Source of the DNA: Pseudomonas serboccidentalis
GTDB lineage: Bacteria; Pseudomonadota; Gammaproteobacteria; Pseudomonadales; Pseudomonadaceae
Reading direction: 5' to 3'
NCBI RefSeq assembly: GCF_028830055.1
Contig: NZ_CP101655.1
Span: 1,202,132-1,266,131, forward strand
DNA: 64,000 nucleotides
Shown here piece after piece: positions 834-63,968 of the stretch (position 1 is its first letter; each line of letters opens with the position of its first letter). A program made the translations under genes and the position numbers. The notes beneath the pieces were generated by a model. The model ran no database searches and was not told where the DNA came from. It saw only the letters and a program-made list of their open reading frames with translations.

Positions 834-2834
834 TTACTTGGCTGCATTCGTCTGCGCTTTTCCAAGGTTTTCCCGGGCTTGCAGGCCGATAAACAGTGGC
901 TCGAGGATCGGCGCGACAAAGCGCGCACCGACTTCGGACAAGTGATTGTCATCGGTGTACAGCGAATAACCGCCGAGTTCGGCGTGACACAGGCCCTTGT
1001 CATCACACAGCCGCGGCGCCGGATCGACCACCCGCACCGCCGGATCATCCTGCGCCAGCTGCGCGAACAACTGACTGATGAACACCTGACGCTTGTGGTG
1101 CGCCTCGACGTCCAGCCCGACGTCATCCACCGGGCGATCGAGCATCGCCAGACGCGTCAGCCGATACGGCGGACTGAAGGCTTGCAACGGCGCCTCTTTG
1201 ACCAACCACACGCGATGGCCGCCGGCACGCAATTGCACCACCCGGGCATGCAGGCCTTCAGCCAGACGTCGTTCGGCGTCGGCGCGGTCGTAACGGCCAT
1301 CAGGTGTTCTCAAGACGTGACCCAGATCGCCTTTGGCGTCGCCGTACAGGTACAGGCTCCAACGCGCGACCAGCACCACATCGCTGACGGATTGCGCCTT
1401 CAACCCCTGCTCGACCCGCTTGTTGAAGCGCGCACAAACACCGTCATGCTCCAGTCCATCGACCGGAATACAGCCGGGAGAGCTGGCCAGGATCACACTG
1501 ACGCCATGGGCTCTGGCACCGTCATCGAACACCGGGATCAGCGCGGTGGCGTGACTGTCACCCCAGACCATCGCCCGGGTCGGCAGATCCGTCACGCCGT
1601 AATGGCAGAACAGCTTGTCGTCCGGGGTCTTGTCGTCCGCCAGACACGCCATCAGCTCCGGCCGCCACTCGCGGCCCTTGGCGTATTGCAGTGCCTGCTC
1701 GGACAGGCGCCATGGCAGGCCATCGGTCCAGCGCAGGGATTGCCCGGCCAGACCGAGCACCAGAATGCCGCAAAAACCTGCCAGCAATACCTGACGACGC
1801 CCGGCCAGCAAACGCCGCTCACGGAACGGGGTTTCGATGAATTTCCACGACAGATAACCGAGCACCAGCGTCAGCAGGATCAAGCCAGCCGTGTCGAGCG
1901 CGCCCGGCTCATCGACACTGGCGTAGCTGGAAAACACGAACACCGGCCAGTGCCATAGGTACCAGGAATAGGAAATCAGACCGAGGCCGACCATCACCCG
2001 GCTGCTCAACAATTGACCAATCACGGTTTCACGATGACCGTTGGCCAGAATCAACAGCACCACGCCCAGCACCGGCAACAACGCGGTGGCCCCCGGGAAC
2101 GGCGTCGACTTGTCGTAGACGAATACCGCCAGCAGAATCAGCCCCATGCCCAGCAGGCTCAAGGCCTGGGCGGCCAGCGGTTTCAAGCGCCAGGCGTGTT
2201 TCGGCGCAATCGCCAGCATGGCGCCGGCCAGCAACTCCCAGGCGCGCATTGGCAGCAGGAAGAAGGCTTTTTCCGGGTGATGATTGATCGCCCACACACT
2301 CAGCCCGAACGACACCAGCAGCACGCCGAACAGCGTCAGCCGCCAGTGTTTCAACCGGCTCGAGAGCAACGTCAGCAGCAGCGGGAAAACGATGTAGAAC
2401 TGTTCCTCCACTGCCAGCGACCAGGTGTGCAGCAGCGGTTTGAGGTCCGAGGCGACGTCGAAGTAGCCGTCCTGGCGCATGAACAGGATGTTCGAGACGA
2501 ACGTCACCTGATAGCGCACCGAGCGCCCCAGCTCTTCATAATCCTTGGGTGCCAGCAGGAACCAGCCCACCGCCAGTACCGCGATGATCATCGCAAACAG
2601 TGCCGGCAGAATCCGCCGCGCACGCCGCGCCCAGAACTCGACGAAACTGAAACGCCCCGCCTGACGCTGGTTCCAGATGATCGAGGTGATGAGGTAGCCG
2701 GAGATCACGAAGAACACGTCCACGCCGACAAAACCGCCGGTAAACCCCGGAACGCCAAAGTGGAACAGCACCACGGCGATCACTGCGACTGCGCGCAGGC
2801 CGTCGATATCCCTTCGATAAGCGAGTGTGCTCAT
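834..2834 (-). CDS. Acyltransferase-3 family membrane protein with C-terminal SGNH domain (OafB/OatA-like)
   Basis: 666 residues. The N-terminal part (about 1-365) is a ten-helix acyltransferase-3 domain starting RRDIDGLRAVAVIAVVLFHF, with the conserved His at residue 25 and the motif GVDVFFVISGYLIT at 37-50. The C-terminal part (about 370-666) is a periplasmic SGNH hydrolase-like domain with GDSHA at 425-429 (nucleophile Ser427) and DDNH at 628-631. Such two-domain proteins O-acetylate surface sugars such as O-antigen or peptidoglycan, passing acetyl across the membrane and then onto the glycan. It is monocistronic here, between ubiD and rho. The glycan acceptor cannot be read from the sequence. 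Confidence 0.88.
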   Translation of the reverse strand: MSTLAYRRDIDGLRAVAVIAVVLFHFGVPGFTGGFVGVDVFFVISGYLITSIIWNQRQAGRFSFVEFWARRARRILPALFAMIIAVLAVGWFLLAPKDYEELGRSVRYQVTFVSNILFMRQDGYFDVASDLKPLLHTWSLAVEEQFYIVFPLLLTLLSSRLKHWRLTLFGVLLVSFGLSVWAINHHPEKAFFLLPMRAWELLAGAMLAIAPKHAWRLKPLAAQALSLLGMGLILLAVFVYDKSTPFPGATALLPVLGVVLLILANGHRETVIGQLLSSRVMVGLGLISYSWYLWHWPVFVFSSYASVDEPGALDTAGLILLTLVLGYLSWKFIETPFRERRLLAGRRQVLLAGFCGILVLGLAGQSLRWTDGLPWRLSEQALQYAKGREWRPELMACLADDKTPDDKLFCHYGVTDLPTRAMVWGDSHATALIPVFDDGARAHGVSVILASSPGCIPVDGLEHDGVCARFNKRVEQGLKAQSVSDVVLVARWSLYLYGDAKGDLGHVLRTPDGRYDRADAERRLAEGLHARVVQLRAGGHRVWLVKEAPLQAFSPPYRLTRLAMLDRPVDDVGLDVEAHHKRQVFISQLFAQLAQDDPAVRVVDPAPRLCDDKGLCHAELGGYSLYTDDNHLSEVGARFVAPILEPLFIGLQARENLGKAQTNAAK

Positions 2835-53925: not shown

Positions 53926-55419
53926 ATGTCCCTCTCCATCGTCCACAGCCGCGCCCAAATCGGCGTAGAGGCTCCCGCTGTCACCGTAGAAGTCCATCTG
54001 GCCAACGGTCTGCCGTCGCTGACCATGGTCGGCCTGCCCGAAGCGGCGGTGAAAGAAAGCAAGGACCGGGTGCGCAGCGCGATCATCAATTCCGGGCTGC
54101 AGTTTCCGGCGCGGCGGATTACCTTGAATCTGGCGCCGGCGGACTTGCCCAAGGATGGCGGGCGGTTTGATCTGGCGATCGCCTTGGGAATTCTGTCGGC
54201 GAGTGTGCAGGTGCCGTGTCTGACGCTGGACGATGTGGAATGCCTCGGTGAGCTGGCGTTGTCCGGCGCGGTGCGACCGGTGCGTGGCGTGTTGCCGGCG
54301 GCACTGGCGGCGCGCAAGGCCGGACGGGCACTGGTGGTGCCGCGGGCGAATGCCGAAGAGGCGTGTCTGGCCTCGGGTTTGAAGGTGTTTGCGGTGGATC
54401 ATCTGCTGGAAGCGGTGGCGCACTTCAACGGGCATACGCCGGTCGAGCCTTATGTGTCGGACGGGCTGATCCACGCCACTAAACCATATCCCGACCTCAA
54501 TGAAGTGCAGGGGCAGATGGCTGCGAAACGGGCGCTGTTGATTGCGGCGGCGGGCGCGCACAACCTGTTGTTCAGTGGGCCACCGGGAACCGGCAAGACC
54601 TTGTTGGCGAGTCGTTTGCCGGGGCTGCTGCCGCCGCTGTCCGAATGCGAAGCGCTGGAAGTGGCGGCGATTCAATCGGTCGCCAGTGGCGTGCCGCTGA
54701 CCCATTGGCCGCAACGTCCGTTTCGCCAGCCGCATCACTCGGCATCGGGGCCGGCGCTGGTCGGTGGCAGCTCGAAACCGCAACCCGGCGAGATCACCCT
54801 GGCCCACCATGGCGTGCTGTTTCTCGATGAGCTGCCGGAGTTCGATCGCAAGGTGCTTGAGGTTCTGCGCGAGCCTCTGGAGTCCGGACATATCGTGATC
54901 GCCCGGGCCAAGGATCGGGTGCGATTTCCAGCACGGTTTCAGTTGGTGGCGGCAATGAATCCGTGCCCCTGTGGATATCTCGGCGAACCGAGTGGCAAGT
55001 GTTCGTGTACGCCGGACATGGTGCAGCGTTATCGCAACAAGTTGTCGGGGCCCCTATTGGACCGGATCGACTTACACCTGACGGTAGCGCGGGAGGCAAC
55101 AGCGCTGAACCCTGCGGTAAAGCCAGGAGAAGACAGCGCCAGTGCGGCCGCGTTGGTAGCCGAGACCCGGGAGCGCCAGCAAAAACGTCAGGGTTGTGCC
55201 AATGCGTTTCTCGATCTGCCGGGGCTGAAACGGCACTGCAGGTTATCCACAGTCGATGAGAAATGGCTGGAGTCAGCCTGTGAACGACTGACCTTGTCGC
55301 TACGCTCGGCGCATCGACTTCTAAAGGTCGCCCGGACGTTGGCCGATCTGGGACAGGAAAAAGAGATCAGGCGCGAGCATCTGGCAGAGGCGTTGCAATA
55401 TCGGCCGGCAACACAATGA
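53926..55419 (+). CDS. comM: YifB/ComM family Mg-chelatase-like AAA+ ATPase
   Basis: 497 residues. N-terminal ChlI/Lon-like domain (MSLSIVHSRAQIGVEAPAVT), a Walker A GPPGTGKTLLASRL near residue 217, Walker B VLFLDELPEF and a C-terminal Mg-chelatase domain with a Cys-rich insert (MNPCPCGYLG, KCSC). ComM is a hexameric helicase that drives branch migration during natural transformation. ubiK-comM order conserved. The ribosome site (CAAGGAACGACC) is good. Confidence 0.93.
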   Translation: MSLSIVHSRAQIGVEAPAVTVEVHLANGLPSLTMVGLPEAAVKESKDRVRSAIINSGLQFPARRITLNLAPADLPKDGGRFDLAIALGILSASVQVPCLTLDDVECLGELALSGAVRPVRGVLPAALAARKAGRALVVPRANAEEACLASGLKVFAVDHLLEAVAHFNGHTPVEPYVSDGLIHATKPYPDLNEVQGQMAAKRALLIAAAGAHNLLFSGPPGTGKTLLASRLPGLLPPLSECEALEVAAIQSVASGVPLTHWPQRPFRQPHHSASGPALVGGSSKPQPGEITLAHHGVLFLDELPEFDRKVLEVLREPLESGHIVIARAKDRVRFPARFQLVAAMNPCPCGYLGEPSGKCSCTPDMVQRYRNKLSGPLLDRIDLHLTVAREATALNPAVKPGEDSASAAALVAETRERQQKRQGCANAFLDLPGLKRHCRLSTVDEKWLESACERLTLSLRSAHRLLKVARTLADLGQEKEIRREHLAEALQYRPATQ

Positions 55420-55779
55420 AAATGACAGCGCAACTCGCAAACGGACTGCCCCGAAAAATAAACATCCAAGCACTGATGGCCATTGGCCGAGATGTGATAT
55501 AACGGCGACGCTCTTTTTTACTCGTTATCCGTCTATCGTCAAGACATAGAGCATTTTTCAACGCGGAAATGGAGGCGGGACATCATGGACAAGATTTCTA
55601 TTGCTCACCGGGCAAAGTCGTTCAATCAACCCGTGCCATCATGATTCAAGCCAAACCTGGCTTGTGTGCGTGTGTCTGGTTGTTAATTTAAATCCAGACA
55701 ACTACAAAAGCCCTTGTCAGCGTTATTACGTTGTTTGACATCGGCCTTATTCAACAAACTTTAAAAGCACAACTTCATC
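55420..55779. other. AT-rich leader of the phosphoramidate-type cluster
   Basis: 360 bp between comM and the first gene of the cluster. It is visibly richer in A/T than the backbone (for example TTTAATTT, TTTAAAAG). Apart from the promoter candidate at 55735-55765 no element was recognised; no terminator is evident behind comM. Confidence 0.5.
55735..55765 (+). promoter_or_regulatory. Candidate promoter of the phosphoramidate-type cluster
   Basis: TTGACA (perfect -35) at 55735 and TTTAAA at 55760 with 19 bp between. The spacing is slightly long and the -10 imperfect, so this is a tentative call. It ends about 15 bp before the ATG at 55780, which leaves a very short leader; a promoter further upstream is equally possible. 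Confidence 0.3.
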
Positions 55780-56952
55780 ATGAAAAATGTTTACTTGCTC
55801 AGCAACGTGGCGGATGGTGGCAAAACATATCTCGAGTATCTGATTCCAGCGCTCAACTCGCTTCGACAAAAGTATAATTGTGTCGTACTTAATACTGATC
55901 GTACCGGCTTAAGCAGAGAGGAAGTCGAAGCCGTCCTCGATTTCCCGGTAAAGCAGATTGGCAATGACTTCATTGCAAGCCTGAAATCGCAGGTTGTCAT
56001 TTCAAATGACGCCTATGCCGGACGTCTGCTGGACCATTCAAATTTTGGCATCTTCATCAGTCACGGCAATGTCGGGATGCCGGCCAAAGACAAGTATTAC
56101 TACGCTGAGCTGACCTCTTACTGGGATGCAATCATCTCTTCATCCAGGTCGGGCTTTGATTTGATTACCGCCGGACTGCAGGCATACCGTCGCGACAGAA
56201 AGGCCCTGAAAACAATGTTGATCGATGGACTGGCCTTGCGTTCGGACATGCGCAACACCAGTCCCGTGGCTACGCTGCCCGTCAAGATTCCCGGTATCTT
56301 CGAATCATCACCGCCATCGAAAAAAACTTCGGACGACTATGTCGTAGGGCTTCTGCCGACCCAACTGGGTATCTGCCCGAACGGGGCAACACTGTATGAA
56401 AACCTGCAGACCGTCATCAATGCAGTCAAATCGCAAATTCCCCACGCAACCTTCATCTTGCGTCCGTACATGGCCGAACTTTCCCATCCGACCGTGAAAG
56501 CGTTGTGCGAAGAACTGTCTGCCTATGACTGGATAACCATCGACAAGGCAGGAACCAGCAGCACGGTTTTCTACACACAATGCGACACGGTCATCACCGA
56601 CGCATCCACCGGTGGTGTGTCGTTCATGCTCAACACCTGCAAGCTGCCGATTTATTACGTGCCCTTTACCGAAGAGAGCAATCTCACGGTCGACGCCTGG
56701 CTAAAGCAAATGGACACCCTGTTGCCAATTGCCAGAAGCAGCAATGAACTCAAAGACATGGCATCCGGGTTCAGCCTGCTGGCACGAGAAGACAGTTACT
56801 ACATATACAACAAGTTCTACCAGGCACAATACAGCGACTTGCCCCTGCCTCAGGAAGTGTTCCACGACTTGATTGAATATCGGCACGAGTCGAAGTACTG
56901 CCCGCTGTCGATTGACTCTTTCGGGGACATTAACGAACGGGACAAACATTAA
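55780..56952 (+). CDS. CDP-glycerol glycerophosphotransferase-like (TagB/TagF-type) GT-B protein
   Basis: 390 residues, no membrane segment. The C-terminal domain has TDASTGGVSFMLNTCKLP (273-290), like the TDYSS-DY motif of TagB/TagF, and GLLPTQLGICPNG (190-202). The N-domain has IFISHGNVGMPAKDKYY, cf. the HGTPLK motif. Such enzymes transfer glycerol phosphate or sugar units from CDP-activated donors. As the first gene of the cluster it may carry the phosphoramidyl transfer or extend the acceptor glycan; inference. No good ribosome site is seen. Codon and base use are more A/T-rich than the downstream genes. Confidence 0.7.
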   Translation: MKNVYLLSNVADGGKTYLEYLIPALNSLRQKYNCVVLNTDRTGLSREEVEAVLDFPVKQIGNDFIASLKSQVVISNDAYAGRLLDHSNFGIFISHGNVGMPAKDKYYYAELTSYWDAIISSSRSGFDLITAGLQAYRRDRKALKTMLIDGLALRSDMRNTSPVATLPVKIPGIFESSPPSKKTSDDYVVGLLPTQLGICPNGATLYENLQTVINAVKSQIPHATFILRPYMAELSHPTVKALCEELSAYDWITIDKAGTSSTVFYTQCDTVITDASTGGVSFMLNTCKLPIYYVPFTEESNLTVDAWLKQMDTLLPIARSSNELKDMASGFSLLAREDSYYIYNKFYQAQYSDLPLPQEVFHDLIEYRHESKYCPLSIDSFGDINERDKH

Positions 56953-57025
56953 AATAAAGCACGCCTGACCTCATGCGAGAAAACAGCCTGCCGATACACT
57001 CGATTCGAACACAAGTCAGAACGCT

Positions 57026-57568
57026 ATGAAATGTGAAGCTGGTGGACAGGTAATCTGGATTACGGGCCTTTCAGGAGCGGGCAAGTCAACGCTGGCCCGT
57101 GAATTCGTCACCCGACTCCGCACTGCAGGACAATCGGTGGTCATGCTCGATGGTGATGAGTTGCGCGAGGTATTCGGCGCAGCCGCCGCCAACTCACAAA
57201 ACCATGGCCGTGAAGGACGACTGGCGCTGGCGCTGCAATATGCCCACTTGTGCCGAATGATCGCCGCGCAAGGCCAGACCGTGGTGATCGCAACGATATC
57301 GCTGTTTCACGAAGTCCATGCCTGGAACCGCGCCCACCTGCCCGGCTATTTCGAAGTTTATTTGAAGGTCCCGGTCGAGGAGTTGCGTCGCCGAGACCCG
57401 AAGGGAATCTACCGACGATTCGATGCCGGGGAACTGCACAACGTTGCCGGGCTTGATCTGACCGTTGATGAACCGCAAGCGGCAGACTGGCTTGTAGAGT
57501 TCGACCCTCAGCGCTCCAGGCAAAGTCTGGCAGAAGATTTGATCAATAAAATTTATAGAAGGAACTGA
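57026..57568 (+). CDS. APS-kinase-like P-loop kinase; candidate cytidine-diphosphoramidate kinase (Cj1415-like)
   Basis: 180 residues. P-loop GLSGAGKST at 14-22 and DGDELREVFG (near 42-51) place it in the CysC/APS-kinase fold. The segment that in CysC is FISPHRAERQMVRE reads TISLFHEVHAWNRAH here, and DPKGIYRRFDAGELHNVAG resembles CysC RDPKGLY. The C. jejuni homologue Cj1415, once annotated APS kinase, phosphorylates CDP-amidate at the 3' hydroxyl. I therefore favour CDP-amidate kinase over sulfate assimilation. It lies 73 bp after the transferase gene and 2 bp before the methyltransferase. Confidence 0.8.
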   Translation: MKCEAGGQVIWITGLSGAGKSTLAREFVTRLRTAGQSVVMLDGDELREVFGAAAANSQNHGREGRLALALQYAHLCRMIAAQGQTVVIATISLFHEVHAWNRAHLPGYFEVYLKVPVEELRRRDPKGIYRRFDAGELHNVAGLDLTVDEPQAADWLVEFDPQRSRQSLAEDLINKIYRRN

Positions 57569-57570
57569 GT

Positions 57571-58320
57571 ATGAAAACCGAATGGGACTACACCACCCTG
57601 GCCGATGCCTATTTGAAGCGCCCTGACTACGCCGATGCCGCCATTGACGCCATGCTCTCGATCGCTGGCGCCGAGCAAGGCGACAAGTTCTGCGACGTCG
57701 GCGCGGGTGTTGCACACTTGACGCTGATGCTGGCCGCCCGTGGCCTGGATGTCACTGCGGTAGAACCCAACGATGCGATGCGCGCCAACGGCATCAAACG
57801 CACCGCCGAGCTGGCCAATGTCAAATGGCACGAAGGCACCGGCGAAGTGACCGGGCAGGCCGCGCAGACATTCGACATGGTCACGTTCGGCAGCTCCTTC
57901 AATGTCTGCGACCGTCAGCAGGCGCTCAAGGAAACCGCGCGCATTCTCAAGCCCCGTGGCTGGTTTGCCTGCATGTGGAACCACCGCAATCTGGAAGATC
58001 CGATTCAGGCGCGCATCGAAACCATCATAAAAGAGCGCGTCGCCGGCTATGGCTACGGCACCCGTCGTGAAGATCAGACGGCCGTGATCGATGCCAGTCA
58101 GCTGTTCGGCCCGGTCGTACACCTGGATGCGCGGGTCATCCACGAGCAATCCATCGCAGAGTGCCTGGAAGCCTGGCGCTCCCACGCCACGCTGGAGCGC
58201 CAGGCGGGCGCGAAATTTCACGAAGTCATCAGCGCCATCGATGATTACCTGCAAAGCCTGCAGACGCCGTCGATCCAGATCCCGTACTCGACGAATATCT
58301 GGGTCGCTCAGCTGAGATAA
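57571..58320 (+). CDS. SAM-dependent methyltransferase of the phosphoramidate-type cluster
   Basis: 249 residues. Class I fold: motif I CDVGAGVAHLTLML (41-54), acidic end of beta 2 at Glu65 (AVEPNDAM), and MVTFGSSFNVCDRQQAL as motif II/III. AAGGAACTGAGT gives a good ribosome site. By position it is the counterpart of Cj1419/Cj1420, which methylate the phosphoramidate in Campylobacter; only one methyltransferase is present here. Substrate is inference. Confidence 0.8.
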   Translation: MKTEWDYTTLADAYLKRPDYADAAIDAMLSIAGAEQGDKFCDVGAGVAHLTLMLAARGLDVTAVEPNDAMRANGIKRTAELANVKWHEGTGEVTGQAAQTFDMVTFGSSFNVCDRQQALKETARILKPRGWFACMWNHRNLEDPIQARIETIIKERVAGYGYGTRREDQTAVIDASQLFGPVVHLDARVIHEQSIAECLEAWRSHATLERQAGAKFHEVISAIDDYLQSLQTPSIQIPYSTNIWVAQLR

Positions 58321-58326
58321 CGCCTG

Positions 58327-60642
58327 ATGGCCCTGCATTTCTCTACCAAGGCCGGCACCTTGTCGCGCCTGCAAGGGCGGCTCGTGTCTGCGCGCATTGC
58401 GCCGCTGCTCGCGTTCACCGTGGAGCAGTGGCACGCGGATCGGCGCGCCTGCATTCAGGATATCCGGGGCCGGCTGCCTGCCCCCTCCTGGATCGTGCGC
58501 TCCAGCTGTGGCCGCGAAGACAGCGCCCAGGCTTCCTTCGCCGGCGCCTTTCTCTCGGTGCCGAATATCGAGGAAGCAGGGCTAGAGTCGGCGGTTGAAC
58601 AGGTCATCGCCAGTTATGGCGAGGCGCACCTGAGCGATGAGGTGCTGATTCAGCCCATGCTCGGCAACGTGATTCGTTCCGGCGTGGCGTTTTCCCACGA
58701 CCCGAATACCTGCGCGCCGTACCGTGTGGTGAACTGGTCGGAAGGTGACGACACCGCATCGGTCACCGGCGGCATGGGTGGACGGCTCTGGCAGCAGGCG
58801 GCGCACAGCCCCGCTTCACCGCCTGCGGCCCTCTCACCGATCATTGCTTTGCTTGAGGATCTGCTGGAACTGTTCGGCGGTAACCCCGTCGACTGCGAGT
58901 TCGCGGTGACGCGCGAAGCCGAAGGAGAGACCTTGTGGCTGTTGCAGGCTCGACCGTTGATTCTGCCTGCACCGGCAGAGTCCGAAGCCGCGCAGGCTGC
59001 CCGCCTGCAAAGTATCGAGCGCAAAGTCGCGCGCGGCATGCGCCCGCATCCTTTCCTGATCGGCCAGCGCACAGTCTACGGCGTGATGCCCGACTGGAAC
59101 CCGGCAGAGATCATCGGTATTCGCCCCAAACCACTGGCGCTGTCGCTGTATCGCGATCTGGTGACCGACTCCATCTGGGCTTACCAACGCCACAACTATG
59201 GCTACCGCAACTTGCGCAGCTTCCCGCTGATGCCGCATTTTTTCGGTTTGCCGTATATCGATGTGCGCCTGTCGTTCAACTCCTTCATTCCGGCTGACCT
59301 TGATGAGGGACTGGCCGGACGGCTGGTCGACTACTACATCGATCGCTTGCTGGCGGAGCCGACCCTGCATGACAAGGTGGAGTTCGAGATCGTTTTCTCT
59401 TGCTACACCCTAGACCTTTCGCAACAACTGGAGCGCCTGGCCAGTGCTGGCTTCTCCGGACACGAACTGGAGGCCATCAGCTCCAGTCTGCGCAAACTGA
59501 CCAACCGCATCGTGCATCCCAAGGATGGTTTGTGGCGCAGCGACGCCAACAAACTCGACGTGCTCAATGCCCGCCGCGAAGAGCTGCTGACATCCAACGC
59601 CGATCCGCTGGAACGCATCTACTGGCTGCTGGAAGATGCAAAACGCTACGGCACCCTACCCTTCGCCGGCCTGGCCCGGGCGGGTTTCGTTGCGGTGCAG
59701 ATGCTCAGGTCACTGGTCAGCGTGGGTGTGTTCTCGCAGGCCGACTACGACGCGTTCATGGCCGGTGTCTCAACCGTCAGCGGTCAGTTGGCCCGTGATC
59801 GCGCGACGCTCGACAAGACAACCTTCCTGGCACGCTACGGGCACCTGCGTCCGGGCACCTACGACATTCTGTCGCCACGCTATGACGAAGCACCGGAACT
59901 CTATTTCGACTGGGACCAGCGGCCAGCGGCCCCCGAGCCACTGCAACCGTTTTCGCTGACGCTGCCGCAGATGCGCGAGATCGTGAAACTGCTCGAAGCC
60001 CATGGCCTGCAACCGGATCCGGTGGGGCTGCTGGACTTTCTGCAAAACGGTATCGAGTTGCGCGAGCTGGCCAAGTTTCATTTCACTCGCAACCTCTCGG
60101 ATGCCCTGGCGCTGATCGCGCAAGTCGGCGCCGAGTACGGCATCGACCGCGAAGAGCTGGCCTATTGTGATATCAGCGCCTTCCAGGAATTGCACGTTGC
60201 CGCCGCCGATCCAAAAGACGTGCTGCTGCGCAGTATCGAACAAGGCAAGGCGCGCTACGCTGAAACGCTGAAGGTTTCCCTGCCGCCCGTGATCACCTGC
60301 CCGGAAGACGTCTGGAGCTTCGAGTGGCCGGAAACGGCGCCCAACTTCATCACGCAAAAACGTGTGACGGCACCCGTGGTGCAATGCGATGACCGGGAAA
60401 AACTGGCCGGGGCGATTGTCTGCATACCCAACGCGGATCCAGGCTTCGACTGGTTGTTTGCTTACCCGATTGCCGGGCTGATTACCGCATGGGGCGGAGC
60501 CAATTCGCACATGGCGATTCGGGCCGGTGAACTCGGCCTGCCGGCCGTCATTGGCGCTGGAGAAGTGCTTTACCGGCGCTGGTCGACGGCGGATATCCTG
60601 CATCTGGATTGCCCGGGCCGCAGGGTGGAGATGATGACATGA
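58327..60642 (+). CDS. PEP-synthase-like phosphotransferase; candidate L-glutamine kinase (Cj1418-like)
   Basis: 771 residues. N-terminal ATP-grasp (PPDK-N) domain: VRSSCGREDSAQASFAGAF (57-75), and LLQARPL (205-211). Middle region (about 245-640) with WNPAEIIGIRPKPLAL (near 255) and YGYRNLRSFPLM. C-terminal swivelling phosphohistidine domain: GGANSHMAIRAGELGLPAV (723-741) with His728. The PEP/pyruvate-binding barrel is absent, as in Cj1418, which phosphorylates the amide N of glutamine through phosphohistidine. It begins 6 bp after the methyltransferase and its stop overlaps the next start (ATGA). Confidence 0.82.
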   Translation: MALHFSTKAGTLSRLQGRLVSARIAPLLAFTVEQWHADRRACIQDIRGRLPAPSWIVRSSCGREDSAQASFAGAFLSVPNIEEAGLESAVEQVIASYGEAHLSDEVLIQPMLGNVIRSGVAFSHDPNTCAPYRVVNWSEGDDTASVTGGMGGRLWQQAAHSPASPPAALSPIIALLEDLLELFGGNPVDCEFAVTREAEGETLWLLQARPLILPAPAESEAAQAARLQSIERKVARGMRPHPFLIGQRTVYGVMPDWNPAEIIGIRPKPLALSLYRDLVTDSIWAYQRHNYGYRNLRSFPLMPHFFGLPYIDVRLSFNSFIPADLDEGLAGRLVDYYIDRLLAEPTLHDKVEFEIVFSCYTLDLSQQLERLASAGFSGHELEAISSSLRKLTNRIVHPKDGLWRSDANKLDVLNARREELLTSNADPLERIYWLLEDAKRYGTLPFAGLARAGFVAVQMLRSLVSVGVFSQADYDAFMAGVSTVSGQLARDRATLDKTTFLARYGHLRPGTYDILSPRYDEAPELYFDWDQRPAAPEPLQPFSLTLPQMREIVKLLEAHGLQPDPVGLLDFLQNGIELRELAKFHFTRNLSDALALIAQVGAEYGIDREELAYCDISAFQELHVAAADPKDVLLRSIEQGKARYAETLKVSLPPVITCPEDVWSFEWPETAPNFITQKRVTAPVVQCDDREKLAGAIVCIPNADPGFDWLFAYPIAGLITAWGGANSHMAIRAGELGLPAVIGAGEVLYRRWSTADILHLDCPGRRVEMMT

Positions 60643-61268
60643 GGCGAGTCGCTGTCAGCCAGCGAGTGGACCTGCATCCGGAGCGCGGCGAAAGCCGCGA
60701 CGCCCTGGATCAGCGCCTGATCGGCTTTCTGCTGGCGGCGGGGTTCATCCCCTTGCCGGTGCCCAACGGATTGGTCGATGCCAGCCTCGATCGCTGGCTG
60801 GCCGCAATATCGCCTCAGGCATTGCTGTTGTCCGGTGGCAACGACATCGGCCAGTGCCTGGCCCGCGATCACACGGAGACGCGCCTGCTCGATCACGCAC
60901 GCTCCCGCAATCTGCCAGTACTGGGCATCTGCCGCGGCATGCAGATGCTGGGGCATTGGGCAGGTAGCGAACTGAAAGCGGTCAGCGGGCACGTGCGCAC
61001 CCGGCATCGCTTGTCCGGCCAGATCGTCGCCGAGGTGAACAGCTACCACCACCAGTCTCTCGCCAGTTGCCCGCAGGACTTTGAAGTCCTGGCGCGCAGC
61101 GAAGACGGCGAAATCGAAGCGATCCGGCATCGTTCTATGCCTTGGGAAGGCTGGATGTGGCACCCGGAACGCGAGACGAATTTCGCGGCCCATGATGTTC
61201 AGCGTATACGCCAGTTGTTCGGCGAAACCGATTCCACTCAAACAACTCAAGGGACAGACGTTTCGTGA
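60639..61268 (+). CDS. Class I glutamine amidotransferase-like hydrolase; candidate gamma-glutamyl-CDP-amidate hydrolase (Cj1417-like)
   Basis: 209 residues from the ATG at 60639, overlapping the previous stop (ATGA). Nucleophile Cys98 in VLGICRGMQMLGHW, His175 and Glu177 in WHPERE complete the class I triad; SGGNDI (65-70) forms the oxyanion region. Related to PuuD-like gamma-glutamyl hydrolases. In C. jejuni, Cj1417 removes glutamate from gamma-glutamyl-CDP-amidate to leave CDP-amidate. The stop overlaps the nucleotidyltransferase GTG start. Confidence 0.82.
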   Translation: MRRVAVSQRVDLHPERGESRDALDQRLIGFLLAAGFIPLPVPNGLVDASLDRWLAAISPQALLLSGGNDIGQCLARDHTETRLLDHARSRNLPVLGICRGMQMLGHWAGSELKAVSGHVRTRHRLSGQIVAEVNSYHHQSLASCPQDFEVLARSEDGEIEAIRHRSMPWEGWMWHPERETNFAAHDVQRIRQLFGETDSTQTTQGTDVS

Positions 61269-61978
61269 AAGCCATTATTCTGGCTGCCGGACGTGGCAGC
61301 CGCATGAAAAGCCTCACCGATGAACGCCCAAAGTGTCTGGTCGAATTGCGCGGCAAACCCTTGCTCGAATGGCAACTGCAATCGCTGCGTGCAGCAGGCA
61401 TCAGTGAAATTGCGGTGGTAACCGGCTACAAACGCGAATTGTTGGCCGACCGGGGCCTGACCGAATTTCATAACCCTCGTTGGGCAGACACCAACATGGT
61501 GTCGTCACTGGCCTGCGCCGAAGTCTGGCTTGAGGGCCAGCCGTGCATCGTCAGTTATTCGGATATTTTTTACAGCCCGGACGCCGTCAGGTCGTTGATG
61601 ACCAGCCAAGCGTCGTTGGCCGTCACCTACGACCCCAACTGGCTGGAGTTGTGGACCCAACGTTTTGGCGACCCACTGCTGGATGCCGAAACGTTCCGGC
61701 TCAATAGCGACGACACGCTGGCCGAAATCGGCAACAAACCGCAATCGGTGGAGGAAGTCGAGGGCCAGTACATGGGGTTGCTGCGCTTCACGCCCGCAGG
61801 TTGGGCAGAAGTCGTGCGGCTACGCGGCGAATTAACCTCAAGCCAGTGCGACAAGATGCACATGACCAATACCCTGCAGCGTGTCATCGACGCCGACCGG
61901 GTAGCGATCGAGGCCGTTGCCTATTCAGGAGAATGGGGAGAGGTCGACTCCAGCGAAGACCTCTCCGCGTACCAGTAA
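61265..61978 (+). CDS. Sugar/choline-type nucleotidyltransferase; candidate CTP:phosphoglutamine cytidylyltransferase (Cj1416-like)
   Basis: 237 residues from a GTG at 61265 that overlaps the previous stop by four bases. MKAIILAAGRGSRMKSLTDE with Lys23 (RPKCL) is the nucleotide-binding signature; VSYSDIFYS (Asp100) and the terminal GEVDSSEDL (acidic) give metal ligands. NMVSSLACAE (77-86) is typical of LicC/Cj1416-type enzymes acting on phosphoryl donors. Role inferred: CTP plus L-glutamine phosphate to gamma-glutamyl-CDP-amidate. Last gene of the cluster, 13 bp before the convergent chemoreceptor gene. Confidence 0.82.
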   Translation: MKAIILAAGRGSRMKSLTDERPKCLVELRGKPLLEWQLQSLRAAGISEIAVVTGYKRELLADRGLTEFHNPRWADTNMVSSLACAEVWLEGQPCIVSYSDIFYSPDAVRSLMTSQASLAVTYDPNWLELWTQRFGDPLLDAETFRLNSDDTLAEIGNKPQSVEEVEGQYMGLLRFTPAGWAEVVRLRGELTSSQCDKMHMTNTLQRVIDADRVAIEAVAYSGEWGEVDSSEDLSAYQ

Positions 61979-61991
61979 CCGGCACGCCGCA

Positions 61992-63968
61992 TCAGCGAAA
62001 CCGATCAACCTCGGAGCGCAGATCGGCCGCCAGCTTCTCCAGTTCCTTGGCGGTGACCGCCAGGTTGGAAACCACTTCGCGCTGCTCACTGTTGGCCAGC
62101 GCAATGCTCTGCAGATTGCTGCTGAGCAACGTCGCGGTGCTGCTCTGCTCCTGCGTCGCCGTGGTAATCGCCGCAAACTGCTGCCCTGCCGAACGGCTCT
62201 GTTCGTCGATCCGTGCCAGCGCCGAAGCAACGTTGGCGTTGCGCGACAGGCCTTCCTGCATCAGCACGTTGCCCTGCTCCATGGTGCTGATGGCATTGCC
62301 GGTTTCCTGCTGGATGCTGTGGATCATCCCGGAGATTTCGTCAGTCGCCTGACGGGTGCGCGAAGCGAGGTTGCGCACTTCGTCAGCCACCACCGCAAAG
62401 CCACGACCCTGCTCACCGGCCCGCGCCGCTTCGATGGCTGCATTGAGTGCCAGCAGGTTGGTCTGTTCGGCAATCGAAGTGATCACGCTGACGATGCCGC
62501 CGATTTCCTGCGAGCGCTGACCCAGGGTATTGATCACGGTAGCCGTGGTGTTCAGTGCGCCAGCAATTTGCTCCAGCGAGGAAGAAGCCTCTTCCATCGA
62601 GGTGCGGCCAATCTGGGTCTGCTGGGCATTTTCCTGGGCCAGACGCTGGGTGTTGCCCATGTTATCGGCGATATTCAGCGAGGTGGCGCTGAACTCTTCC
62701 ACTGCGCCGGCCATGCTGGTGATTTCCCCGGACTGCTGCTCCATGCCTTCGTACGCGCCACCGGACAAACCGGACAGCGCCTGCGCCCGGCGGTTGACCT
62801 CTTCGGAGGCGCGGCGGATGTGCTCGACCATGGTCGACAGCGCTTGGCTCATCTGGTTGAACGCGCGGGACAGCTGACCGATTTCGTCGTTGCTCGACAC
62901 GTTCAGACGCACGCTCAGATCACCGGCGCCCAGGGCTTCGGCCTGGCGCACCAGATCACTCAGGGGCGCCAGTTTGCTGCGCAGCAACCACACCACCGAA
63001 CCCACGGCCAGCAGCATCGCCAGCAGACTGCCGATCGCCAGTTGCGTGCCGACGCTCCAGGTCACCGCGCGAATCTCGGCTTTAGGCATGCTTGCCACTA
63101 CCGCCCAAGGGCCACCGTCGAATGGCACCGAAACGCTGTAGAAATCTTCGTTCTTGTCGCTCCAGAACTGGCCTTTGCCTGGGGTTTTGGCCAGGCCGCC
63201 GATCACCGTAACCGCCTGTTCCAACGCCTGTACACCCGCTGGTGCCACCAGCCATTTGTTCTGCTCATCGAGCAGCGCCAGAGAACCGGTCTGACCGATG
63301 CGGAAGCGCTTGAGGTTGTCGAACTGGGCGTTCTGCGCGTCGGTGTAGTCGAAACCGACGAACAACACCGCAATCACCTTGCCGCTGCTGTCGCGCACCG
63401 GGGTGTATTGGGTCATGTAGGAACGATCGAACAGCAAGGCGCGACCGACATAGCTCTGTCCCGCCATCAACTTCGCATAGGCCGGGTGCGCATGATCGAG
63501 CAAGGTGCCGATGGCACGCGTACCGTCCTGTTTGGTCAGCGAGGTGCTGACCCGCACGAAATCTTCGCCGCTGCGTACGAACAGCGTGGCGACGCCGGCC
63601 GTCATCTGCTTGAACTCGTCGACTTCCTTGAAGTTGTTGTTCAGGACTTCGCTGCCCAGGTGCAGGCCCGGGGTCTGGGTACCTGCCACAGACACCGGCT
63701 GATCCGGATGAATGCTCAGGCCCGCGCTGAAGCGCTTCTCGAACAACCCGCTCAGACGCTGGGTGCTCTCGCGCAGCGTGCCGTGGAAGGTGCTCAACTG
63801 GTCGGCCAGCAGCCGCGCTTCACTGGCGAGGTGCTCTTCACGGGTGGCGAGATTGGCGGTATCCAGCGAACGCAGGGCGAACACCGTACTGCCACTGATG
63901 ACAATCGCCAGTATCACAGCAAGGGCAAAGCCCAGCTGCGAGGCGATCCGGGCACGAGGTTGAGACAT
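61992..63968 (-). CDS. Methyl-accepting chemotaxis protein with Cache sensor
   Basis: 658 residues. First membrane helix at about 12-33 ([20 protein letters not shown]), a periplasmic Cache-type domain (about 40-305; [20 protein letters not shown]), second helix (about 311-330, [16 protein letters not shown]), HAMP and a full signalling domain with the hairpin [19 protein letters not shown]. No C-terminal pentapeptide for CheR binding. Ligand not predictable. The stop lies 13 bp from the cluster's last gene, convergent, with no obvious terminator between. Confidence 0.93.

Follow-up and report, generated by a model that had tools for sequence, protein, structure and literature searches.

A putative phosphoramidate cassette in the Pseudomonas serboccidentalis chromosome and its relatives across bacterial phyla

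The analysis concerned a stretch of 64,000 nucleotides of the Pseudomonas serboccidentalis genome (contig NZ_CP101655.1, positions 1,202,132 to 1,266,131), hereafter called the window, and, within it, six co-directional open reading frames (ORFs), g1-g6, located between the comM gene and a chemoreceptor gene. They occupy positions 55780-61978, exactly as reported by an earlier sequence-only reading, which had proposed that these genes form a cluster for phosphoramidate (P-N bond) biosynthesis resembling the O-methyl phosphoramidate (MeOPN) capsule pathway of Campylobacter jejuni. The genes are tightly packed, as g1 and g2 are separated by 73 bp, g2 and g3 by 2 bp, and g3 and g4 by 6 bp, and the last two joins are an ATGA overlap (g4-g5) and a GTGA overlap (g5-g6); the ORF coordinates thus bear out the four overlaps or gaps of less than 10 bp described previously. 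The most likely start of g5 is the ATG at 60639, overlapping the g4 stop, and not the mechanically called TTG at 60609, and g6 begins with a GTG that overlaps the g5 stop. What was observed directly, and is presented below, is which genes the set contains, how they are packed as an operon, the subfamilies they fall in, the conservation of their catalytic residues and of their order, and their mobility. Based on comparisons with the known pathway, we consider it highly probable (about 0.86) that g1-g6 constitute a self-contained, horizontally moving cassette for making a phosphoramidate group and transferring it onto an acceptor. The features of the locus are collected in Table 1.

Table 1. Cassette genes and their immediate surroundings (window positions).
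Feature	Coordinates	Strand	Remarks
g1: GT-B fold transferase, putative divergent PF04464-type relative	55780..56952	+	390 aa; proposed phosphoramidate transferase
g2: CDP-amidate-kinase-type P-loop kinase, PRK05541/NF004041 subfamily (labelled adenylyl-sulfate kinase)	57026..57568	+	180 aa; Pfam APS_kinase
g3: S-adenosylmethionine-dependent methyltransferase	57571..58320	+	249 aa; PF08241 (Methyltransf_11)
g4: glutamine-kinase-type three-domain dikinase	58327..60642	+	771 aa; PPDK_N (PF01326) + PEP-utilizers (PF00391)
g5: class I glutamine-amidotransferase-type hydrolase, gamma-glutamyl-CDP-amidate hydrolase family	60639..61268	+	209 aa; Peptidase_C26/GATase
g6: MobA/LicC-type nucleotidyltransferase, proposed CTP:phosphoglutamine cytidylyltransferase	61265..61978	+	237 aa; PF12804 (NTP_transf_3)
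Leader rich in A+T that separates g1 from comM and forms the 5' border of the insertion	55420..55779		GC 0.48-0.51 around it versus about 0.60 across most of the flanks
comM/yifB (Mg-chelatase family), left neighbour, conserved chromosomal flank	53926..55419	+	PF01078
Methyl-accepting chemotaxis protein, right neighbour, conserved chromosomal flank	61992..63968	-	PF00015, PF17201

The g4 protein is composed of an N-terminal ATP-binding domain, a middle domain and a C-terminal phosphohistidine domain, and no phosphoenolpyruvate (PEP)-binding domain was found in it with Pfam, which is the architecture of a glutamine-kinase-type dikinase. It scored 1012 bits on the NF004508 model (cut-off 501), whereas on the PEP synthase model TIGR01418 (cut-off 739.75) it received only 22 bits, compared with 1215 bits for the real PEP synthase encoded at 2299782 of the same genome. 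Histidine 728 in the GGANSH motif, i.e., the phospho-His position, is at least 98% conserved in 108 homologues, and many positions of the middle domain are also conserved across homologues. The structure of g4 was predicted with a predicted local distance difference test (pLDDT) score of 86.0, and the closest solved relative, both by sequence and by fold, was rifampin phosphotransferase, an enzyme whose mechanism turns ATP into AMP and phosphate. Among the fold matches only this enzyme covered the g4 model over its whole length, in contrast to PEP synthase (2ols), which aligned over 200 residues only. The identification of g4 as a PEP synthase was thus rejected. It is also worth mentioning that NF004508 is still named "hypothetical protein", which is likely an annotation gap.

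For g5, the best of 18,950 NCBIfam models was NF045546 (gamma-glutamyl-CDP-amidate hydrolase), which was also the best model in all nine other cassette g5 proteins tested. The PuuD model NF008471 (cut-off 266) gave 34.5 bits, compared with 99.4 bits on NF045546, and a full Peptidase_C26 gene (PuuD-type by family) is present elsewhere in the same genome; the assignment of g5 to PuuD was therefore rejected. Residues Cys96, His173 and Glu175 (numbering from codon 60645, 207 aa) are at least 98% conserved in 104 sequences. Here, as in g2, g4 and g6, the catalytic roles of the conserved residues are presumed from family knowledge, and conservation was read from homologue alignments which include near-identical copies.

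The g2 kinase scored 229 bits on NF004041 (cut-off 127) and 100.5 bits on TIGR00455, the model of adenosine 5'-phosphosulfate (APS) kinase, i.e., below its cut-off of 138.7, while all three genuine APS kinase loci of the same genome showed the reverse pattern. Seven of seven other cassette kinases tested were likewise over the PRK05541 cut-off and below that for APS kinase, and G19, K20 and D42-G43-D44 of g2 are at least 98% conserved in 86 sequences. The g2 protein is therefore very probably not a genuine APS kinase and belongs to a separate kinase subfamily, whose substrate, judging by homology, would be CDP-amidate (CDP, cytidine diphosphate). The members of NF004041 scoring highest among 398 Pseudomonadota genomes all come from genomes with a glutamine-kinase-type protein, although the model is labelled adenylyl-sulfate kinase, and this label is likely another annotation gap.

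The best solved relative of g6 was LicC, the CTP:phosphocholine cytidylyltransferase, and in 102 sequences the GxGxR motif (G9, G11, R13), K23, D100 and D228 are at least 98% conserved. In 67 of 80 loci related to that of the window, the methyltransferase gene g3 sits a short distance 5' of g4, and two kinds of it occur: 49 of the 67 are at least 50% identical to that of the window and 18 are less similar (30-39% in most). Taken together, the Pfam and NCBIfam family placements agree with the previous suggestion that five consecutive genes match the enzyme kinds of the MeOPN pathway together with a methyltransferase. The outcomes named in advance as contrary to it did not appear: g4 does not cluster with PEP synthase (22 bits on its model, and the rifampin phosphotransferase fold match), and g5 does not cluster with PuuD (NF045546 being its best model and the Peptidase_C26 gene lying elsewhere). 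PEP synthase, Peptidase_C26 and APS kinase are each encoded by a gene of their own elsewhere in the genome, so these three alternative identities fail.

The 80 loci mentioned above are the best of 103 g4 relatives retrieved in a species-genome scan, and several of them (e.g., L027, L036, L060, L074, and L081) are contig ends, some of which (e.g., L060 and L081) are among the loci where genes of the set were missed. Neighbouring ORFs were called with a longest-ORF rule, and presence was counted by tblastn, because that rule missed genes lying under antisense ORFs. In this set, g5 was found behind g4 in 74 loci and g6 in 73, g3 ahead of g4 in 67, g2 in its place in 66, and all of g2-g6 in 55 loci, which belong to Pseudomonadota (47), Verrucomicrobiota (3), Nitrospirota (2), Bacteroidota (2), and Cyanobacteriota (1). 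Of the 74 loci where g5 shares the strand of g4, 59 show the 4-base g4/g5 overlap, and this, together with the 55 complete loci, indicates that the grouping is more than chance. Moreover, a natural fusion of g2 and g4 into one protein was found in an uncultured Magnetospirillum (L079:5213-8077). Across the 398 Pseudomonadota genomes, the g4 model was over its cut-off in 15, and the g5 model (E<=1e-20) was matched in 14, all within those 15; the kinase model was over its cut-off in 17 genomes, 10 of them among the 15 with g4. The corresponding co-occurrence P values, with relatedness of the genomes not corrected for, were 7e-25 for g4-g5 and 2e-12 for g4-kinase. A protein search gave 6877 g4 homologues at E<=1e-3 among 7997 scored, the best 120 of which were listed.

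In the first gene of the cassette, g1, no Pfam family reaches its cut-off. The previous description of g1 as a CDP-glycerol-type transferase was thus not borne out by a direct Pfam match, but a profile-profile comparison with PF04464-type relatives did support it (hhalign: 97.6%, E 4.5e-12, against no more than 0.4% for any of five decoy families). A fold search with g1 returned GT-B proteins, with TagF/TarL among the matches and not above them and with UDP-GlcNAc 2-epimerases ranking as high; because TagF is not singled out in this way, the PF04464 link rests on the profile-profile result. A sequence search of solved structures with the g1 profile gave three chance-level matches and no relative. 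In summary, g1 resembles the TagF/TarL CDP-polyol transferases (PF04464) in GT-B fold, in the proposed type of donor (a CDP-activated phosphoryl group) and in profile-profile similarity, and differs from them in staying below the Pfam cut-off and in a fold match tied with UDP-GlcNAc 2-epimerases and other GT-B proteins.

The g1 family is Pseudomonas-centred, and since a g1 relative lies directly in front of the cassette in 16 of 18 named Pseudomonas loci, g1 mostly travels with it; in L017 the g1 frame is split in two pieces. The gene directly 5' of the cassette (hereafter the slot gene) belongs to the g1 family in 17 of the 80 loci and is of the PF04464 type in four more, namely L031 (Pfam) and L039, L040, and L048 (a local profile whose seed family includes PF04464 matches). 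In eight loci (L021, L026, L033, L035, L042, L057, L066, and L067) it is a sulfotransferase-family gene, recognized either with Pfam itself or with local profiles seeded from proteins that match Pfam; the slot gene of L044 is sulfotransferase-like below the Pfam cut-off and that of L076 shows a weak sulfotransferase profile match, and in four more loci (L058, L061, L082, and L085) a sulfotransferase-like gene is located 3' of g6. The remaining loci have no upstream ORF called or another gene there, and among ten such other slot genes scanned three had no Pfam match and others encode radical-SAM, cytochrome, hexapeptide or nucleotidyltransferase proteins. All slot counts are lower bounds, and the neighbour profiles annotate the very loci from which they were derived. 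In 19 sulfotransferase-like proteins inspected (some from outside the slot), an R[DH]P...S-type motif, of the kind present in the sulfotransferase 3'-phosphate-binding site, was seen in 11, an SG-type motif at the domain start in 10 and, with the patterns used, neither in four.

A further gene, of the inositol-phosphatase superfamily (recognized by Pfam in one case), is inserted between g5 and g6 in at least 10 of the 80 loci. For nine of nine of these proteins tested, the best NCBIfam model was TIGR01331 (CysQ, 3'(2'),5'-bisphosphate nucleotidase), with two above its cut-off. Such an enzyme is what a 3'-phosphorylated donor would require, because the by-product of transfer would be 3',5'-CDP. 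The CysQ-like gene and the PF04464-like or sulfotransferase-like slot genes together suggest a scheme similar to that of 3'-phosphoadenosine 5'-phosphosulfate (PAPS), in which the donor would be 3'-phospho-CDP-(O-methyl)amidate and the by-product 3',5'-CDP. With PAPS-dependent sulfation this scheme shares a kinase fold that adds a 3'-phosphate to a nucleotide and, in relatives of the cassette, CysQ-like nucleotidases and sulfotransferase-like transferases; it differs in the separate kinase subfamily and in the proposed 3'-phospho-CDP-amidate donor used instead of PAPS, and the window copy differs additionally in having a GT-B transferase and no CysQ of its own.

Each reaction of the pathway, as well as the donor used by g1 and the methylation step, is proposed here by homology to C. 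jejuni. The g4 enzyme would phosphorylate the amide nitrogen of glutamine, g6 would join phosphoglutamine and CTP into gamma-glutamyl-CDP-amidate, and g5 would remove glutamate to give CDP-amidate, to which g2 would add a 3'-phosphate, yielding 3'-phospho-CDP-amidate. O-methylation by g3 may take place before or after transfer, their order being a guess, and g1 would attach the (methyl) phosphoramidate to a surface-glycan hydroxyl and set free 3',5'-CDP (pCp), which a CysQ-type nucleotidase would clear. In a broader formulation, phosphoramidate transfer would be sulfation-like: a portable g2-g6 module would supply a general 3'-phospho-CDP-(O-methyl)amidate donor to interchangeable transferases of two unrelated folds, with a dedicated CysQ-like nucleotidase, and would be shared horizontally across phyla, so that phosphoramidate surface glycans (flagellar in some Pseudomonas) would be common but overlooked. 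We give this generalization even chances.

Several observations weigh against the phosphoramidate reading of g1-g6. The 99.4 bits of g5 do not reach the curated NF045546 cut-off of 250, which was passed in 0 of the 398 Pseudomonadota genomes, and g5 was therefore placed in the same family and not as an equivalog. For g6 there is a LicC-type family and there are conserved motifs, but no function-specific model, and the likeness to Cj1415-Cj1418 rests on models and names. The window cassette has no CysQ-like gene, so that the host PF00459 genes at 5501599 and 2982474 would have to serve. Seven of the 17 genomes with an over-cut-off kinase (all at 127-137 bits) are without g4, five of the 15 g4 genomes are without a kinase over the cut-off, and of the 14 genomes with both g4 and g5, two (G438 and G497) have the matches on different contigs and one (G399) 6 kb apart. 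Finally, in two of the 80 loci (L035 and L057) g4 is located beside a sulfotransferase-like gene, and g2, g3, g5, and g6 were not found in 20 kb; in these strains g4 may be used differently, or the remaining genes may lie elsewhere. Both loci (L035:7136-11310 and L057:6869-11304) come from Magnetococcales, and their g4 homologue (74% identity) directly follows the sulfotransferase-like protein, which has TPR repeats in L035.

Among 398 Pseudomonas genomes, 36 (the window's own included) carry g4 at E<=1e-100, with 16 copies at 84-100% identity, six at 59-60% and 14 at 38-44%; g5 and g6 were matched beside g4 in 30 of these copies examined as loci, and in L215. The window g4 shares 82% identity with one copy from Dechloromonas, 81% with one from Rhodobacteraceae, 75% with one from Verrucomicrobiales and 70% with one from Bacteroidetes; within its own genus, it shares 69% with the version found in Pseudomonas sp. 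CAN1 (L050) and at most 60% with the other divergent versions. A quick g4 tree, which has Shimodaira-Hasegawa-like approximate likelihood ratio (SH-aLRT) support only and many open forks, placed Pseudomonas in four separate positions, namely within the window clade (26 rows), at L050, in a clade next to Chitinibacteraceae and in a distant one.

In the window, the cassette is inserted on its own between comM and the chemoreceptor gene. Distances between these two genes, worked out by hand from coordinates in 36 Pseudomonas genomes, were about 6.5 kb with the cassette in between in ten genomes and within 1.7 kb without a cassette there in 14, four of which (G172, G262, G108, and G301) carry the cassette elsewhere; four genomes showed other distances, four had no receptor match, and four had both genes on different contigs or far apart. 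In some genomes (G005, G304 and others) the interval is 5-19 kb without a window-type cassette, and for this reason it may be an insertion hotspot. A divergent g4-g5-g6 set (g4 at 39% identity), located right beside comM in nearly the same chromosomal place (L214:8001-12905, genome G361), is probably an independent insertion.

Other variants were also noted. Pseudomonas sp. CFII64 carries a second, partly decayed cassette (L049:6768-11837) with short g2 and g6 matches only and g5 unmatched, near a gene (5253-6461 of L049) which we presume to encode an integrase. In the Pseudomonas loci L110-L114 (g4 at 39-41% identity), where g5 and g6 come next, the g4 open frames measure about 1020-1080 aa, possibly owing to an N-terminal extension; in L110 the NF004508 match starts at residue 292 of the open frame. 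On plasmids, 15 records were found, 14 of them covering at least 80% of g4 at 33-54% identity and none close to the window type. Full-length plasmid relatives include NZ_CP039644.1:316684-319005 and NZ_CP140104.1:120667-122979, and the hosts of the plasmid records include Azospirillum, Vibrio alfacsensis, Cupriavidus taiwanensis, and Agrobacterium vitis. A pattern scan of viral contigs, suited to close relatives only, revealed no phage-borne copy. A 9.5 kb "Bacteriophage sp." record without annotation, obtained from human faeces (MT837632.1:676-2988), encodes a g4 relative of 32.6% identity and may be a mislabelled bacterial contig.

As for the surroundings of the cassette, Pfam matches were obtained for seven of ten other long window ORFs scanned, i.e., polyphosphate kinase, ALAD, an ABC ATPase, an argininosuccinate-lyase-type lyase, adenylate cyclase, a frataxin-domain frame and, at the far end of the window, an acyltransferase-SGNH protein. 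The surroundings therefore have the look of a housekeeping region. The acyltransferase with its SGNH domain (PF01757, PF19040; window 834-2834, minus strand) is possibly a second glycan-decorating enzyme. A scan of the leader revealed no consensus sigma-70 promoter.

This solitary position among mostly housekeeping ORFs is the reason to consider that the cassette makes CDP-amidate as proposed, but for a secreted small molecule or a lipid, all the more so as pseudomonads make many small secreted compounds. We regard such a product as unlikely, since the GT-B fold of g1 is typical of sugar or polyol-phosphate transfer and the Pfam scan found no exporter gene within the window cassette. Furthermore, glycan genes occur near related cassettes (for an epimerase, a DegT aminotransferase, a WxcM-like protein and large glycosyltransferases), and among eight other Pseudomonas regions there are four (L208-L211) in which g4 lies directly behind a flagellin N-terminal-domain gene, followed outward by flgK (Pfam in L208 and L211). 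By its place, the former would be flgL. The flgL/flgK region is the usual neighbourhood of the flagellin glycosylation island, and in L211 a PF04464 protein, a WxcM-like protein and a glycosyltransferase are encoded behind the cassette. This arrangement, with FlgL-type and flgK genes next to the cassette, suggests that flagellar glycans serve as one acceptor there.

It is clearly less probable that g4-g6 act on an amide or amine other than glutamine, in which case the CDP-activated N-phosphoryl product would be another one. Family members may differ in specificity, given that 14 other Pseudomonas g4 proteins are only 38-44% identical to that of the window, and g5 remains below the NF045546 cut-off; related COG1213 cytidylyltransferases are also described, in the available part of one source, as using several phosphorylated substrates (PMC12275187). 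On the other hand, g4 is followed by a gamma-glutamyl-hydrolase-type g5 in 74 of 80 loci, as would suit the need to take off a glutamyl group, and many positions of the g4 middle domain are conserved.

Marginally less credible still is the view that g2 is a true APS kinase and that two systems sit together in the cassette, one for sulfation (PAPS, sulfotransferase, CysQ) and a g4-g6 pathway independent of it. The APS-kinase family of g2 and the sulfotransferase-family and CysQ-like neighbours in relatives would agree with it, but the model scores separate the cassette kinases (g2 and 7/7 others) from the real APS kinases (3/3) in both directions, the kinase is fused to g4 in L079, the slot in the window holds g1 instead of a sulfotransferase, and no ATP sulfurylase was found within the window cassette. 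A chance grouping of ordinary PEP synthase, PuuD and sugar-nucleotide genes, to which only superfamily membership points, is refuted by the 55 of 80 loci with g2-g6, the co-occurrence, the L079 fusion and the genuine paralogues encoded elsewhere, and its probability is negligible.

Among the proteins of the MeOPN pathway, we take Cj1418 to be the glutamine kinase and the suffix c to denote the complement strand. The accessible text of PMC11202532 names Cj1415c as cytidine diphosphoramidate kinase, Cj1416c as CTP:phosphoglutamine cytidylyltransferase, Cj1417c as gamma-glutamyl-CDP-amidate hydrolase, Cj1419c and Cj1420c as methyltransferases and Cj1421c as a possible sugar transferase. By these names, the C. 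jejuni capsule pathway (Cj1415-Cj1422) includes the same four biosynthetic enzyme kinds, a methyltransferase and a transferase as the window cassette, in the common order transferase - methyltransferase - glutamine kinase - hydrolase - cytidylyltransferase. However, its kinase is at the 3' end and not after the transferase, it has two methyltransferases instead of one, and it is part of a capsule cluster, whereas the Pseudomonas set sits by itself, inserted between comM and the chemoreceptor gene.

P-N bonds are rare in known biology. According to published excerpts, 13 of 30 Campylobacter strains have orthologues of cj1416-1418, the O-methyl signals of Campylobacter lie at about 3.6-3.8 ppm in 1H-31P HSQC, and phosphoramidate without O-methyl is mentioned in the lipopolysaccharide of Xanthomonas campestris and Shewanella (PMC3907429); the available part of a 2019 paper states that the modification was identified only in Campylobacter (PMC6429109), and that of a 2022 review calls the glutamine kinase C. 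jejuni-specific (PMC9561416). In the accessible portions of PMC11167607 and PMC10595159, the word "phosphoramidate" appears only within reference titles. A literature search, beyond whose reach most subscription papers lay, recognized no description of a phosphoramidate pathway in Pseudomonas, by which absence in print is not shown.

Compared with the known pathway, the cassette would thus represent the same core chemistry with a different transferase, a different genomic setting and a wide horizontal spread, and with a PAPS-like logic that becomes visible only when loci are compared. The same kind of pathway would now be placed in pseudomonads and other Pseudomonadota, as well as in Verrucomicrobiota, Nitrospirota, Bacteroidota, and Cyanobacteriota, with g1 named as the probable transferase in Pseudomonas. 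The comparison also offers a testable answer to the question why the pathway makes a 3'-phosphorylated nucleotide: it would be a PAPS-like donor, with a by-product cleared by a CysQ-like enzyme. Moreover, it suggests that genes labelled "PEP-utilizing enzyme" or "adenylyl-sulfate kinase" (NF004041) are in part misnamed. Finally, as a reference title indicates, a phage reportedly recognizes the modification of C. jejuni, and for this reason we would guess that the cassette may shape the phage sensitivity of other bacteria too.

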